Shown: piece after piece, positions 13,398 to 20,507 of the stretch | Layout of the letters: the number at the start of each line of letters is the position of its first letter | How positions within the stretch are numbered: the first letter of the stretch is position 1 | Assembly (NCBI RefSeq): GCF_023238625.1 | Contig: NZ_CP096670.1 | Location: forward strand, 3,018,501 to 3,082,500 | Source: Agarivorans sp. TSD2052 | Lineage (GTDB): Bacteria; Pseudomonadota; Gammaproteobacteria; Enterobacterales; Celerinatantimonadaceae | DNA length: 64,000 bases | Reading direction: 5' to 3' | Notes under the pieces: generated by a model | Told to the model about the DNA's origin: nothing | Seen by the model: only the letters and a program-made list of their open reading frames with translations | Database searches by the model: none | Made by a program: the position numbers and the translations under genes

Positions 13398-15359
13398 CTA
13401 GCTTAATTGCCCCCACAAACGCTGCACTTGCTGCAGGGTATTAGCATAAGGAAGTTGTTCGCAACGGCCAAAACCCGCCAATTGGCGTAACTTAAGTTTG
13501 GTTGACCAAGGGCTAGTAATCCCGGTTAAGAAGCGGCACGCCAAAATTGGGCTCAGACTCAGCGTTTTGCTGCCCCCACATTGCGCTTTTAGCGCCTGTA
13601 AATCACTTAATAATTGGCTGTCATTGATCTCAATAGGGCGATTAGAATAGCTAAGTTTAGCCGCTTGCCCGCGGCATACGCTGCAGTGGCCACATTGCTG
13701 AGGGGCGTTGTGATCATCAAAGTAACGCGACAATTGGTAACTTAAACATGAGTCTAATTCGAAAAAACGCACCAGCTGCGCAATACGTTTAATCTCTTTT
13801 TGTTGGTTGTCATTAAAGTAATTAGATAAACGCTCAGCCAAGCTTGCATCGGCGATGCCTGCTGTCTCTACTTGATATACTTCGGTGATTTTCTTAGTTT
13901 CTAATTCTATCAAGCCTTGTTCAGCCAAATACTCTAAGGCGGCAACCACCCGTGACCGCTCGGCTTGGTAGCTATGGTATAGACCATTAAAATCAAGAGT
14001 TCCCCACACCTTCTTCATCTGTGTATGGCGAAATATGGCTTGAATAAAGGCTAAACGCTCCCCAGTGAAGCGCGCTAACACTGCATTTTTGTCTTGTAAG
14101 AATTTGTATCTAAAATCAGCGTAATAGGCGTACAAAGGCTTAACTAATCCTTGAATTTCTAACTGAACTAATAAGGTTTTTAGCGGTAGTTGGCGAATAT
14201 TAGTTAGGCTAGACAGGCTGTTTATTTGTACTTCCCATTGGTCTATTTTCCCTACTAGTTGACTGTCAGTTCGAATATTATTTAGTAAGGTTTCAATACC
14301 ACTTTGTTCTGGCGTATCACCATATACAAAGTTTTCAACGGTTGTTAAGCCATCTAAATTGGCTAAGGTTAAGCAGTTTGATCGATTGCCATCGCGCCCT
14401 GCTCGACCGATTTCTTGGCTGTAGTTTTCAATCGATTTGGGTAAGTCATAATGAACCACAAAACGAATATTGCTTTTGTCTACGCCCATGCCAAAGGCAA
14501 TGGTAGCCACTACCACTTGCACTTTGTCGTTCATAAAATCATTTTGGGTTTGTTGACGCTGCTCATTGGCAAAGCCCGCATGATAGGCCACCGCGTTCAG
14601 CCCTTGGCTTTGCAAGTACGCAGCGACCTCTTCGGCGGTGTGCTGTAAGGTGACATAAACAATGCCTGCGCCAACCTGTTGGCCAATGAAGTTAGCTAGC
14701 CGCTGATTTCTTTGCGCGCTGCTACAGGCCTCTACAGTTAAATCTAAATTTGACCGATAAAACCCCGTTTGCACAATGTCGCTTTCACCAATGGCAAAAC
14801 GCTCGGCCATATCTAATTTTACTTTTTTAGTGGCGGTGGCCGTTAGCAACAACACGAGGGGAATGTTTAGCTCTTGGCGATATTGAGGAAGCTTTAAATA
14901 ATCGGGGCGAAAGTTATGCCCCCATTCTGAAATACAGTGGGCCTCATCAACCACTAACATCGACATCGGTACTGACTGAATAAATTGCCGAAATCGCTCA
15001 TTTTTAAAACGCTCGACCGAGACCATCAATATTTTAGTTTTGCCGCTACGTACGTCGCTCATCACCTGCTTGCTTTGCTCAGCACTTAGGGTGGAATCTA
15101 AACTAGCAGCAGCAATCCCTTTAGACTGCAAAAACTCTAGTTGGTCTTTAATTAAGGCCAATAAGGGCGAAACCACCAAGGTTAGGTGTGGCAATTGCAA
15201 GGCGGTAAACTGATAACACAAAGACTTACCCGAACCGGTGGGAAATATCGCTAAGCAGGAGCGTTGCGCCAGTAAACGTTCAACCACTGGTGCTTGCCCA
15301 TGACGAAAGCTGGTAAAGCCAAAGGTTTGGCTTAACTGGGTTAATAAAGCATCGCTCAT
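13398..15359 (-). CDS. RecQ-family ATP-dependent DNA helicase
   Basis: 653 residues. The helicase core is clear: motif 0 and I (FRHGQAPVVERLL, FPTGSGKSLCYQ), motif II VVDEAHCISEWGHNFRP, motif III LLLTATATKK, and motifs V and VI (VATIAFGMGVDK, QEIGRAGRDG). A RecQ zinc-binding region follows with CLSYQLSRYF and CGHCSVC near residue 560. The last 100 residues are divergent and do not show a clear HRDC domain, so this is a RecQ paralogue rather than the standard RecQ. It unwinds DNA 3' to 5' in repair and recombination. The gene starts 42 bases after the DUF3307 gene and may be cotranscribed with satD. Confidence 0.9.
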   Translation of the reverse strand: MSDALLTQLSQTFGFTSFRHGQAPVVERLLAQRSCLAIFPTGSGKSLCYQFTALQLPHLTLVVSPLLALIKDQLEFLQSKGIAAASLDSTLSAEQSKQVMSDVRSGKTKILMVSVERFKNERFRQFIQSVPMSMLVVDEAHCISEWGHNFRPDYLKLPQYRQELNIPLVLLLTATATKKVKLDMAERFAIGESDIVQTGFYRSNLDLTVEACSSAQRNQRLANFIGQQVGAGIVYVTLQHTAEEVAAYLQSQGLNAVAYHAGFANEQRQQTQNDFMNDKVQVVVATIAFGMGVDKSNIRFVVHYDLPKSIENYSQEIGRAGRDGNRSNCLTLANLDGLTTVENFVYGDTPEQSGIETLLNNIRTDSQLVGKIDQWEVQINSLSSLTNIRQLPLKTLLVQLEIQGLVKPLYAYYADFRYKFLQDKNAVLARFTGERLAFIQAIFRHTQMKKVWGTLDFNGLYHSYQAERSRVVAALEYLAEQGLIELETKKITEVYQVETAGIADASLAERLSNYFNDNQQKEIKRIAQLVRFFELDSCLSYQLSRYFDDHNAPQQCGHCSVCRGQAAKLSYSNRPIEINDSQLLSDLQALKAQCGGSKTLSLSPILACRFLTGITSPWSTKLKLRQLAGFGRCEQLPYANTLQQVQRLWGQLS

Positions 15360-15401: not shown

Positions 15402-16145
15402 TTATGCAAGCGCATGATACAAAGCATGGGCAGCCAAGCCGGTAAGTACGCTAATAGCCACACTTAATAAGGTGCCTAACATTACGTATTCGGTCAGTTG
15501 TCGGTCTGATTGGCCGGTTAAATCGCCAAACCGAAAAATCGATTTAGCCGCCACTATAAAACCTATTGCGGAAAATTGATGCAGCAGCACACAAGTAAGT
15601 ACCAAACTACGCTCAACCATACCAATTGCTTGACCCGCCATAGGCAAGTTTTGTGCGGGTTGCTGGGTAACAGGGCTCCAACGCTGCAATACTAAAGCAA
15701 GTATCTTAGATGTTGGAGTTAAAATGATCAGATACGCCAACCCAACCACCATCACCTTAGGCTGCATAAGCTGCTGACGAAGCGGCTCAACGATGTGCCA
15801 AGCGTGGCTAAGGTCTACCACCAGCAGCAAAAACACCAGCACTTGCGCCAACTGGCTGCCAATAAAGTAACGCGCAGTGTCGGGTAAATAGGTACTCAGT
15901 AGCTTAATTAAAAAAGAGGCAAATAGTAAGGCGATACTGGCCACCAGCAATTGGCTGCTAGCGCCGACAAAAAACCAAGCAATAGCGGCAAATGTAAGGC
16001 TAATGATTAGCGCCCGCCAATATAAACGCGGTGTAGCCAATTTTGCACGGCGAATACTTACCGACCACTGCAAGGGCAAACAATAAAACTCAAGTACTAG
16101 GTAAGCTACGCCAACGCTAAGGGCAAACTGGGCCAGTTGTTCCAT
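15402..16145 (-). CDS. DUF3307-like integral membrane protein
   Basis: 247 residues with about seven hydrophobic segments (for example VGVAYLVLEFYCLPLQW, VLVFLLLVVDLSHAWH and VMLGTLLSVAISVLTGLAA). Proteins of this type (DUF3307) are commonly encoded beside SatD-like proteins, as here; the two genes overlap by 29 bases, so they are translationally coupled. The function is unknown; it may be the membrane partner of the SatD protein. Confidence 0.75.
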   Translation of the reverse strand: MEQLAQFALSVGVAYLVLEFYCLPLQWSVSIRRAKLATPRLYWRALIISLTFAAIAWFFVGASSQLLVASIALLFASFLIKLLSTYLPDTARYFIGSQLAQVLVFLLLVVDLSHAWHIVEPLRQQLMQPKVMVVGLAYLIILTPTSKILALVLQRWSPVTQQPAQNLPMAGQAIGMVERSLVLTCVLLHQFSAIGFIVAAKSIFRFGDLTGQSDRQLTEYVMLGTLLSVAISVLTGLAAHALYHALA

Positions 16146-16779
16146 AGTAAAACTCTTCCATAAGTTGTTTAAAATACTGTTTATATTCTTCTAACAGCTG
16201 ATACTGGCTCTGGTTAAGTAGCTTAGTGGCATTAACCCGCGAGCTATTAAGCTGCTTAGCGAGAGCTGCATGGCTAGGCTCTGGCAAATGCCAATATAGG
16301 GCCAGCGCATTCGCTTGTTTGGTGGTGAGCTGTTGAATTTGTAAATCGGCAAACTTGGTGAGCAGATCCATGCGCTGACTAAATACAGGGCGATCACTAA
16401 AAATCCCTAAATAGTGCCTTTTTAAACTATCTAAGCCTCGCCCAGACAACACAAAAGCCTCGCCATTTGAGCGTGAAATAAGCTCAGCCAAAGGGTCAAT
16501 CACACCAATGCCGATACCAATACGCGCATCATAGCTTTTACCATGACTTTGCACAGACCGAAGTGCCAAACGAATATTGAGCGCACACTCTACCGCCACA
16601 GTTGGGTTAGTGAGTACCAACTGAAATGCATCACCACGAAATATTTCATAGCGACATTGGTAGCGTTCACTTTGATCCGCCAAGGTTCGGCTTAAGGCGT
16701 GTATTAGCGTAGCAAAGTGTTGGCTGTCTAGCTCACTAGAACCGACCAAGTCACCGGTAAGCACTGCGACTTGCTGCAT
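16117..16779 (-). CDS. SatD-family protein
   Basis: 220 residues from the ATG at 16779 (AGAGGG upstream); a longer frame starts at a TTG without an RBS. The start VAVLTGDLVGSS and the later RYEIFRGDAFQLVL and ARIGIGIGVID are typical of SatD proteins, which resemble nucleotide-cyclase folds. Residues about 165-205 (QANALALYWHLPEPSHAALA, then KQLNSSRVNATKLLNQSQY) look like a helix-turn-helix, so the protein may bind DNA. Upstream lies a cluster of GTAAC half-sites that could be its own operator. It overlaps the membrane-protein gene and is followed by recQ-like. Confidence 0.8.
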   Translation of the reverse strand: MQQVAVLTGDLVGSSELDSQHFATLIHALSRTLADQSERYQCRYEIFRGDAFQLVLTNPTVAVECALNIRLALRSVQSHGKSYDARIGIGIGVIDPLAELISRSNGEAFVLSGRGLDSLKRHYLGIFSDRPVFSQRMDLLTKFADLQIQQLTTKQANALALYWHLPEPSHAALAKQLNSSRVNATKLLNQSQYQLLEEYKQYFKQLMEEFYYGTTGPVCP

Positions 16780-16797
16780 AATTAGCCCTCTGAAAAA

Positions 16798-16859
16798 GTA
16801 ACCCAATTTAGTTACATTTTAAAATGTAACCTATTTTGGTTACAATGTTAAGTGTAACC
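16798..16859. promoter_or_regulatory. Array of five alternating GTAAC/GTTAC half-sites upstream of satD
   Basis: Half-sites occur at 16798 (GTAACC), 16811 (GTTAC), 16826 (GTAACC), 16838 (GGTTAC) and 16854 (GTAACC), alternating in orientation about every 12-16 bases. The central pair forms a perfect 20-bp palindrome at 16811-16830. This is the 5' region of the minus-strand satD operon and looks like a multi-site operator. Confidence 0.65.
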
Positions 16860-17359: not shown

Positions 17360-18910
17360 ATGAACAAACTGTTATTTTTTCACTTTGATGGCACCTGTAA
17401 CGAACCTGAAGACGGTGACCAAGCCATCCAAGGTTATAAACAAGAGATTGAAGATTGCAGTATTACTAATGTGTTAAAACTACACCTAATGCTAGGTGGT
17501 AAGCTAACCAAACAAAACGGCAAAACCAACTTAGGAAACGACAGTTACTCTTTCTACTATCAAGGTGTAGGCACGCGAGGCGGCTTTTTCAAACGGCTAA
17601 TCAACAAGGGCCTGTCTCCCTCTAAAGGCGATGTAAAAACCATTATTAATGCCGCGCTTAACGACTTTAAGCAACACTATAATCCAGACAAACACCAATA
17701 CCTGGTGCTGACTGGTTTTTCCCGTGGGGCAGCATTAGCGAGGCGCTTTGCTAAAGTATTACTGGATAAAGGCTACTTAAAAGACAGCGATAAAATCGTC
17801 GTAGAGTTGGTGTTTGATACGGTAGCGTCTATAGGCTTGCCGAACACTAAACAAGATGATCGCCCCAAATCTAAAGTGGTATTTGAAGACGGCTTCACCC
17901 TGCCTAGCACCGTAAAACAAGCCTTACATTTAGTCTCTCTCGACGATAAACGCGATGCCTTTCAACCCACCTTAATGAACCACGAGAACCGAGTAGAAGA
18001 GGTATGGTTTAGTGGTGCGCATAGTGATGTAGGCGGTGGCTATAACTTTGATGGCTTGTCTGACATTACTTTGTGTTACGCCAAGGATTGGATAGAGCAA
18101 TTAGACTACTTAGCTATAAGCTTGAAAGCGCCAAGCCAAATTGAATATGGGTCATTATTGCCCCCCGGTAAACCTGCGCCTATTGGCCTTGATGACTTGC
18201 TAATAGACCCTTGCCCGTTTGGTGTTAACCACCAACAAGAGCAAAATATAGCGAGCATCTTTCTGCATAATGATCGTCGTTGCTGTGTGATTCAACACGA
18301 TAAAGTAGTGGCCGAGTTAGCGCCTAAAGTACACCTGTCGGTTGCCCAGCGTATTGCAGGGATGAGAGAGTATCGACCCAACTCATTAAAAAATGTTGAT
18401 CACTACTTAGTGTTTAGCCCTTGGCTGAGCAACCCCAATTTGGCAACCGGTGTTGCAGTGCATGAGTTAGGTTTTTACTCCAACTTAGTGATGGCAAAAA
18501 CACCGATTACCACGCGAGTCGTCGCACACCGTAAAAATAACCATAGTGGCGTATTGGTTGAACGCGGCCATAAGTACCGAATAAAAGTGCTGGAAGGCCC
18601 CCGCTGGAACGACTCCACCATTAAAGAGTTAGACGGTGAAGGCTGGGATAGAGCCAAACAACACTTTAGCTTCTTTAAAAATATACCCATCGCCTCGATG
18701 GAACATCGTAAACGTGTTGTGGCTGATAAGGCCCAGTGGTTCACCTTGTGTGGCAATATTGACGAAGACGATAGCAAAGCCTTTGTGATAGGCAATGAAA
18801 CGATTTATACCGCCAGCGACACCGGAGAATTGTGTTTATTTGCTAATGACCTAGATGGCTTTTACAGCAATAACAGTGGCCATTTACTGGTTAGCGTCGT
18901 AAAGCAATAG
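17360..18910 (+). CDS. DUF2235 (T6SS Tle1-like) alpha/beta hydrolase
   Basis: 516 residues from the ATG at 17360, chosen because of the strong AAGGAGAGCATC upstream. Family features: LLFFHFDGTCNEPEDGD at the start, the nucleophile elbow LVLTGFSRGAALARR (GFSRG, about residue 120), an acidic region VFDTVASIGLP, and the hallmark FSGAHSDVGGGY with the catalytic-site His/Asp. Tle1 proteins are phospholipases, several of them type VI secretion effectors. The C-terminal 200 residues are not recognised. No vgrG, PAAR or immunity gene is adjacent, so an effector role is only a possibility; a housekeeping hydrolase is the alternative. Confidence 0.82.
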   Translation: MNKLLFFHFDGTCNEPEDGDQAIQGYKQEIEDCSITNVLKLHLMLGGKLTKQNGKTNLGNDSYSFYYQGVGTRGGFFKRLINKGLSPSKGDVKTIINAALNDFKQHYNPDKHQYLVLTGFSRGAALARRFAKVLLDKGYLKDSDKIVVELVFDTVASIGLPNTKQDDRPKSKVVFEDGFTLPSTVKQALHLVSLDDKRDAFQPTLMNHENRVEEVWFSGAHSDVGGGYNFDGLSDITLCYAKDWIEQLDYLAISLKAPSQIEYGSLLPPGKPAPIGLDDLLIDPCPFGVNHQQEQNIASIFLHNDRRCCVIQHDKVVAELAPKVHLSVAQRIAGMREYRPNSLKNVDHYLVFSPWLSNPNLATGVAVHELGFYSNLVMAKTPITTRVVAHRKNNHSGVLVERGHKYRIKVLEGPRWNDSTIKELDGEGWDRAKQHFSFFKNIPIASMEHRKRVVADKAQWFTLCGNIDEDDSKAFVIGNETIYTASDTGELCLFANDLDGFYSNNSGHLLVSVVKQ

Positions 18911-19013: not shown

Positions 19014-20507
19014 CTACATAGGCTTATCTAAATCAAAGCTAAAGCGAGTGCCCTCGCCTAAGGTAGATTTCACGCTAATGCTAGACCGGTGCAACTGCAC
19101 AATACGTTTGGCAATGGCTAAACCTAAGCCGCCATGTGAGCTGCGATCTTTAGCTCGATTAGCAGCTCGATAGTGGGCATCAAAAATATAGGGTAAATCA
19201 TCAGCCGGAATGCCAGTGCCTGTATCACTCACGCTAATCTGCAGTTTTTCAGTGTGCGCTACTGGGCTAATCACGACCTTGATTTCATCGCCTTCACTAC
19301 AATGGCGAATCGAGTTTTCCAGTAGATTAGTGAATACCCGCTCAATTTTTTGAATATCGGCACACGCCAATAATGAGGGGTCTTGCGGCTCAACCCGCAT
19401 AAGTACCTGTTTTTTCTGGGCTGCAAGTGCGAGTTTTTGAATCACGTCTTGCGCTAATTCGGCAATGGCTACTGGCTCTTCATTGATGGTCGCAGAGTCA
19501 CTATCTAAATGGGCTAATTCAAATAATTGCTCTACCAAGCTAGAGGTTTTGCGAGCACTGCTTAGCGCCACTTTTATCAGTTGTTCGCCCTCTTCGGGTG
19601 ATAAATCACGGTGCTTAAGCTGCCAAGTTTCAAGGTAACCCTGCAAGGATGCCAGCGGCGTGCGTAAATCATGAGAAACATAAGAAATAAGCTCGCGGCG
19701 TAATTGGTCGGTATCTTTAACCTTTTGATATTGCCCCTTAATGGTGGTGGCCATATCACTAAACGCCGCCCCTAGCTTTTGTACTTCGTCATGCGAATTA
19801 TTTTGCCAGTGCCCCGCAATGTTAGAGCTTTTCTCTAAACCAACATGCTGAAACTGATCAATATCTTTGGCTAAGCGACGCAGCGGTTTAGTGAGTAAAC
19901 CAAAAATGAGAAACACCACTAACAGGCTAAACCCTAAGATAAACAATAAACCCAACAGGCTTAACTTCATTATGTGGCTACTTTGTAAAAGCTCGGCCAC
20001 ACTGTCGTAAATCTCGCCACCGATAATGATGTACAAATAGCCTTTAACTTGTGCCCCTTCATGTATTTCTGCCACCGAAAAAATCTTGCGGCGAGAGCTT
20101 GAACGCGGATCATCGCCAATAATTGGCATCACGCTATCACCCGTAATAAATTGGCGTATCGGCGTTAAATCGACTTGTTCACGTTTAATTTTACTGGGAT
20201 CGGCTGAATAAGTGACCACCTTACCGGCGGTATCGAGAATATAAAACTCAAAGCTTGGACCAAGGATCATCATCGAGTGAAAGGCTTGTTTAATTCCTTT
20301 AGGGTCTAACTCACCGTCTTTAAACAATTGGCTATCGTGTACTAAGTGTTCGGCTAGTTGCAGGTGCAATTTCTGTTCGATTTCATTTTGGTATTGCTGA
20401 GAGCTTTGATGGGCCAAACCCAGTAACAAGCCACCGGCAAGAATAAAGCACACCACTACCGCCAACATTAATTTGCTGTAGAACGAACTAATCAACTTAA
20501 ACATCAT
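19014..20507 (-). CDS. Sensor histidine kinase
   Basis: 497 residues. An N-terminal membrane segment (LMLAVVVCFILAGGLLLGLA) is followed by a periplasmic sensor region of about 130 residues, a second membrane segment (LLGLLFILGFSLLVVFLIFG) and a HAMP linker. The HisKA box is LISYVSHDLRTPLASLQGY with the phospho-accepting His, and the ATP site has NLLENSIRHC, DTGTGIP and GGLGLAIAKR. The ATG at 20507 overlaps the response regulator gene by 11 bases, so the pair is translationally coupled. With the regulator upstream and two spondin-domain genes further upstream on the same strand, I infer it senses an envelope or surface signal. Confidence 0.92.
   Translation of the reverse strand: MMFKLISSFYSKLMLAVVVCFILAGGLLLGLAHQSSQQYQNEIEQKLHLQLAEHLVHDSQLFKDGELDPKGIKQAFHSMMILGPSFEFYILDTAGKVVTYSADPSKIKREQVDLTPIRQFITGDSVMPIIGDDPRSSSRRKIFSVAEIHEGAQVKGYLYIIIGGEIYDSVAELLQSSHIMKLSLLGLLFILGFSLLVVFLIFGLLTKPLRRLAKDIDQFQHVGLEKSSNIAGHWQNNSHDEVQKLGAAFSDMATTIKGQYQKVKDTDQLRRELISYVSHDLRTPLASLQGYLETWQLKHRDLSPEEGEQLIKVALSSARKTSSLVEQLFELAHLDSDSATINEEPVAIAELAQDVIQKLALAAQKKQVLMRVEPQDPSLLACADIQKIERVFTNLLENSIRHCSEGDEIKVVISPVAHTEKLQISVSDTGTGIPADDLPYIFDAHYRAANRAKDRSSHGGLGLAIAKRIVQLHRSSISVKSTLGEGTRFSFDLDKPM

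Follow-up and report, generated by a model that had tools for sequence, protein, structure and literature searches.

The window analysed here, a 64,000-nt stretch of Agarivorans sp. TSD2052 DNA, contains the satD gene with an alternating array of short half-sites ahead of it, a DUF3307 membrane protein gene overlapping its 3′ end and a RecQ-like helicase gene further downstream. The features of the locus are listed below in window positions.

16117..16779, minus strand: satD coding sequence, 220 aa (open reading frame, AlphaFold2 model, Foldseek and weak PF16264 match)
16390..16779, minus strand: class III nucleotide-cyclase-like domain of SatD, about residues 1−130
16210..16272, minus strand: helix-turn-helix (HTH) of SatD, about residues 170−190
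about 16210−16239, minus strand: recognition helix SRVNATKLLNQ
16798−16858: array of five half-sites, GTAAC at 16798, GTTAC at 16811, GTAAC at 16826, GTTAC at 16839 and GTAAC at 16854
16798..16815: operator unit 1, GTAAC-N8-GTTAC
16826..16843: operator unit 2, GTAAC-N8-GTTAC
16854..16858: fifth, outer half-site, unpaired, kept among Agarivorans relatives
16811..16830: perfect 20-bp palindrome GTTACATTTTAAAATGTAAC, at the junction of units 1 and 2
16823..16851, minus strand: sigma-70-like promoter candidate TTAACA-N17-TACATT within the array, 9/12, a consensus match only
15402..16145, minus strand: DUF3307 membrane protein gene, overlapping satD by 29 bp
13398..15359, minus strand: RecQ-like helicase gene, 42 bp downstream of DUF3307

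The original prediction, made from the window sequence, placed five alternating GTAAC/GTTAC half-sites just ahead of satD, and this array proved real. Its start-to-start spacings are 13, 15, 13 and 15, and on the minus strand it reads GTTAC-N10-GTAAC-N8-GTTAC-N10-GTAAC-N8-GTTAC, leaving 18 bp before the satD ATG. With half-site spacings of 10−18 bp allowed, no dinucleotide shuffle of the window (n=300) had an alternating chain of more than three half-sites (reached in 4 of the 300), compared to five in the real window. The satD start was corrected from the upstream TTG at 16806 to the ATG at 16779, which gives the 220-aa protein. The operator repeats as GTAAC-N8-GTTAC units joined by a 10-bp linker. 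Six copies of this unit occur in the 4.6-Mb genome, two at satD and four elsewhere with no neighbouring alternating array; this isolation led us to reject a global GTAAC regulon.

The array was present in all seven Agarivorans genomes examined, although the flanking bases diverge, and one half-site has decayed in the most distant of the seven. A strict four-half-site pattern was found in 9 of 326 genomes of the order, in every case beside satD, while the reversed-pattern control returned none in the same 326 genomes. Two of the nine genomes (G210 and G253) carry arrays of ~18−20 half-sites; these expanded GTAAC/GTTAC arrays (2610−2860 at locus L090 and 2220−2490 at locus L092) have a regular 29-bp period and resemble tandem repeats.

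The AlphaFold2 model of SatD, built on a 63-sequence alignment (mean pLDDT 95.6), has an N-terminal domain of alpha/beta type followed by a purely helical C-terminal domain that includes an HTH, whose helices span 168−175 and 179−188 in the model numbering (offset by 2). The HTH-like segment originally proposed at the C-terminus was thus borne out by both profile and structure model. Sigma-70 region 4-like HTH profiles (Sigma70_r4/HTH) matched 22 of the 63 family members, and the HTH also resembles that of a DeoR regulator (7bhy, E 3.3e-4). Foldseek aligned the N-terminal domain with class III cyclases at a probability of 1.0 and E values of 5e-5 and up, the matches including Rv1900c, Ma1120, guanylyl cyclases and PycC (7r65). 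A profile search with SatD retrieved Ma1120 (E 2.4e-5) with both metal-site Asp motifs aligned, and the corresponding positions D10 and D50 (TGD, RGD) were invariant in the 63 homologues. The region of the cyclase Asn/Arg pair reads GEAFxLSGRGLD, where the expected Asn is absent and the Arg is not invariant; because this transition-state motif looks altered (SGxxxD), cyclase activity of SatD is doubtful. As modelled, SatD combines a class III cyclase fold with a sigma-region-4-like HTH. The window protein scored 14.6 bits (E 0.025) against PF16264, below the 29-bit gathering cut-off, but 30 of the 63 homologues, encoded in the same operon type, matched at E ≤ 0.01 (best 7.5e-10), thereby relating it to PF16264 through its relatives. 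A PF16264 scan of its own and control genomes returned no matches and was uninformative. Our literature search found no description of SatD as a DNA binder or autoregulator, of its operator arrays, or of DUF3307 function.

Homologues of satD were detected in 55 of 395 genomes of the order, 8 of 369 of the class, 21 of 399 of the phylum and 38 of 199 of an alphaproteobacterial family, and a first search of plasmids added nine carriers. Absence of the array from homologous operons had been set beforehand as a refuting condition for the original idea of self-repression, and the idea survived it; arrays with a 28/29-bp period and lineage-specific half-sites lie ahead of most of them. The same alternating geometry recurred in about a dozen lineages of Gamma- and Alphaproteobacteria and plasmids with differently spelled half-sites, including TTAGCC, GCGTAT, GCAAG, ATCAAG, GCAAA, ATCACA, GTCAACC, TTCGC, GCA(A/T)CC and more. 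A word-agnostic, de novo finder scored 47 of 71 satD upstreams above all 40 shuffles, and scores of at least 3.8 were reached by 56% of satD upstreams compared to 0.8% of 1034 windows taken as controls at those loci. No clear array was seen in the stretch searched at loci L064−L068, L078, L079, L101 and L120.

The finder permitted distances of 18−48 bp between half-sites of the same orientation, yet 130 of 147 intervals measured 28 or 29 bp, across many different half-sites. In the GTAAC, TAGCC and GCAAG classes, adjacent half-sites had an invariant inner spacing and the junction took two values 1 bp apart, the few outliers skipping a missing half-site or taking in an extra outer one. This combination of a fixed inner spacing with a variable junction points to the 18-bp inverted repeat as the likely dimer site. 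The 20-bp palindrome, to which the original prediction had given a central place, is exact at 16811−16830 but imperfect in the other Agarivorans, and is probably an inter-dimer junction at the linker rather than a core site.

The spelling of the half-site followed the recognition helix of the adjacent SatD. GTAAC pairs with helices SRVN..T or QRVS.SR, TTAGCC with ATAT.SKSLK, GCGTAT with PQSRVSERLS, GCAAA with TRQN..HLKRSG, GCAAG with TRQNISERLRAAG and TRQAVQ, ATCAAG with SPQAV, and GTCAACC with SRQNIHK. In a partial Mantel test, restricted to 42 loci that share less than 80% identity, the similarity of half-sites correlated with helix identity when N-domain identity was held constant (r=0.446, 0 of 5000 permutations), whereas the converse, N-domain identity given the helix, yielded r=0.226. 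In a blind prediction on 22 new loci, fetched after the half-site word list was fixed, the half-site of the helix neighbour ranked first or second of 24 at 14 loci, with 1.8 expected by chance. At many of these loci the N-domain neighbour gives the same word; where the two neighbours disagreed on class, the helix was right six times and the N-domain twice, with one tie. The 12 half-site classes required 15 changes on an HTH-free tree, the minimum possible being 11. The correlation between helix and half-site is partly phylogenetic, as neither the Mantel nor the blind test removes kinship completely. On a P. fragi plasmid the predicted half-site TCAACC was the one found. The annotated satD on this plasmid (pPFL; L123, 3393−4142) has a 5′ end that spans the predicted operator array, and its start is therefore probably misannotated. 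This co-variation of half-site and recognition helix strongly supports SatD as the predicted binder of the array.

The partner gene lies downstream of satD, often overlapping it; an automatic adjacency test was passed at 94 of 106 loci, and most of the remaining 12 have DUF3307 but exceed the frame limit or sit at contig ends. Among 149 genomes, the 24 with satD were also the 24 with DUF3307, and neither gene stood alone; two additional weak satD matches in this set sit in much longer, unrelated frames. PF11750 (DUF3307) matched 44 of 47 partner family members (best 4.8e-33), the window copy being divergent (14.9 bits compared to a cut-off of 23). The DUF3307 model is all-helical (pLDDT 92.8); a structure search with it found no PDB fold match, and no DNA-binding domain was found in the protein. 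DUF3307 is the sole other gene kept beside the array across lineages.

The pair is patchily distributed and at times plasmid-borne. On the 10-kb P. fragi plasmid it travels together with integrases and toxin-antitoxin genes, and a 4.4-kb ColRNAI plasmid of Klebsiella pneumoniae (NZ_LR890364.1, locus L170) carries the operator array and satD-DUF3307 as its main cargo; the annotated satD begins there within a longer reading frame. On a Sphingomonas insulae plasmid (L120, among the loci with no array recognised) the pair adjoins a Pycsar anti-phage system with a TIR-domain gene near. PADLOC gave no match for SatD or DUF3307, so that a known defence system was rejected, and a phage origin was rejected as no phage match was found. 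Searching E. coli genomes with the Enterobacter satD module in a distant-mode nucleotide comparison returned nothing. The satD gene has been described as linked to acid tolerance, and in transposon screens of S. pyogenes no other accessory gene was rated essential (PMC11323703); that SatD is only distantly related to the one analysed here, and allele clustering in that pangenome could be an alternative source of the result. Such essentiality among accessory genes would be expected if satD restrains something harmful, and may be explained by it.

The RecQ-like helicase gene keeps its position across the seven Agarivorans genomes and has no close counterpart at satD loci outside the genus; it may share the satD-DUF3307 operon. 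Beyond it, on the plus strand, 12966−13355 encodes a 130-aa protein that matches PF12614 (RRF_GI), which Pfam labels ribosome recycling factor. Divergent from satD, the plus-strand gene at 17363−18910 encodes a protein with a T6SS Tle1-like phospholipase domain (PF09994, E 9e-31) and, at its C-terminus, a weak PA-IL lectin-like match. On the minus strand, 21275−22694 encodes two neighbouring proteins with Spondin_N domains, beside a two-component system at 19014−21198.

The candidate promoter TTAACA-N17-TACATT is the best sigma-70-like match in the window, and such matches in the region are no commoner than in shuffles. Across loci, promoter-like sites overlapped half-sites at 24 of the 30 having a candidate (16 expected), which is weak evidence in favour of repression. 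Taken together, our analysis makes it probable, with good confidence, that SatD dimers bind their own array cooperatively, repress the satD-DUF3307 operon and thereby keep the membrane partner low. We infer each of these steps, from binding and one dimer per unit to cooperativity and repression, as well as the role assigned to the cyclase-like domain. The C-terminal HTH would read the half-site, two HTHs of one SatD dimer occupying each 18-bp inverted repeat, here GTAAC-N8-GTTAC. Successive dimers, 28 or 29 bp apart, would form a row overlapping the satD promoter, and this placement would lead to cooperative binding and repression of the operon, holding DUF3307 at a low level. The cyclase-like domain would serve as dimeriser and as a nucleotide sensor that relieves repression. 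More speculatively, DUF3307 left unrestrained would be harmful, making the pair toxin-antitoxin-like.

The array might instead be bound by another transcription factor, with satD merely among the genes regulated, given that many regulators bind alternating inverted operators. This reading is very improbable, since the half-site follows SatD's own recognition helix beyond overall relatedness, strict GTAAC arrays occur only beside satD, and DUF3307, the one other conserved neighbour, lacks a DNA-binding domain. SatD on the array could also activate the operon, or a nucleotide ligand could toggle SatD between activating and repressing it. In several lineages the array does reach past the best promoter candidate on its upstream side, and the cyclase-like pocket retains both metal-binding Asps; however, the predicted −10 or −35 commonly shares bases with half-sites and coupled gene pairs usually regulate themselves negatively, and we regard activation or toggling as unlikely.

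It is highly improbable that the array serves as a centromere-like site or a nucleation point on which SatD polymerises in a ParB- or ParR-like manner, with DUF3307 as membrane anchor, for DNA positioning or partition. Most arrays comprise 4−6 half-sites, sit no more than about 200 bp from the satD start and coincide in part with promoter-like sequences, most satD loci are chromosomal, this genome has a single such array, and no partition ATPase was seen beside it, even though the two genomes with about 18−20 half-sites in a regular 29-bp period, the joining of an HTH, a nucleotide-cyclase-like domain and a membrane partner, and the carriage of the pair on small plasmids would all suit such a site. 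The palindromes could finally function as RNA, in the form of hairpins, an attenuator or a terminator, as the transcript of the array region folds better than shuffles (z=−2.7) and contains a terminator-like match. Any inverted DNA operator folds, however, and the 28/29-bp alternation, the up to about 20 half-sites and the co-variation with the HTH suit DNA binding; Rfam gave no family above threshold for the array region, on which ground the RNA-element reading, an extremely improbable one, was rejected.

With autorepression by SatD as the preferred reading, a toxin-antitoxin-like or defence-like role of satD-DUF3307 appears plausible because of the obligate pairing, patchiness, plasmid carriage and essentiality of satD in S. 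pyogenes. A broader proposal, which we put forward as a tentative possibility, is that satD-DUF3307 constitutes an undescribed mobile module of this kind, in which a catalytically altered cyclase-fold, nucleotide-gated repressor would chain on its array and restrain a harmful membrane protein, the code of its operators having been rewritten at least 11 times with the 28/29-bp geometry kept. SatD and DUF3307, families without known function, gain from this analysis a concrete, testable job as a pair that controls itself and whose DNA target can be predicted. The arrays also offer a natural experiment in the co-change of regulator and site, with about a dozen spellings, one geometry and a short helix that predicts the spelling.

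Among known systems, the PF16264 SatD family of the Streptococcus mutans sat operon is homologous to the SatD homologues studied here in its N-terminal half, but the streptococcal operon is ylxM-ffh-satCDE, whereas the Agarivorans satD is followed by DUF3307 and the RecQ-like helicase gene. The class III cyclases Ma1120, Rv1900c and PycC share the N-domain fold and both metal Asp positions with SatD, which differs from them in its C-terminal HTH fusion and apparently altered Asn/Arg motif. Type II toxin-antitoxin operons (Phd-Doc, CcdAB, Xre-RES) are cooperatively autorepressed by operator-bound dimers, and satD-DUF3307 resembles them as an obligate pair of overlapping genes with a DNA-binding-type (HTH) first gene, several alternating operators in the promoter region, a patchy distribution and plasmid carriage; in contrast to them, it has no known toxin or antitoxin domain, and its partner is a multi-helix membrane protein. 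Pycsar (PycC with a membrane effector) likewise places a cyclase-fold protein next to a membrane protein, but SatD has an HTH and an operator array, its partner is DUF3307 rather than a Pycsar effector, and PADLOC was negative. Finally, CTP-gated ParB and iteron-type multimeric binders combine an HTH and nucleotide-domain protein with arrays of inverted sites as satD does; compared to them, SatD has an unrelated nucleotide-binding fold, no Par ATPase was seen at its loci, and its arrays are promoter-proximal.
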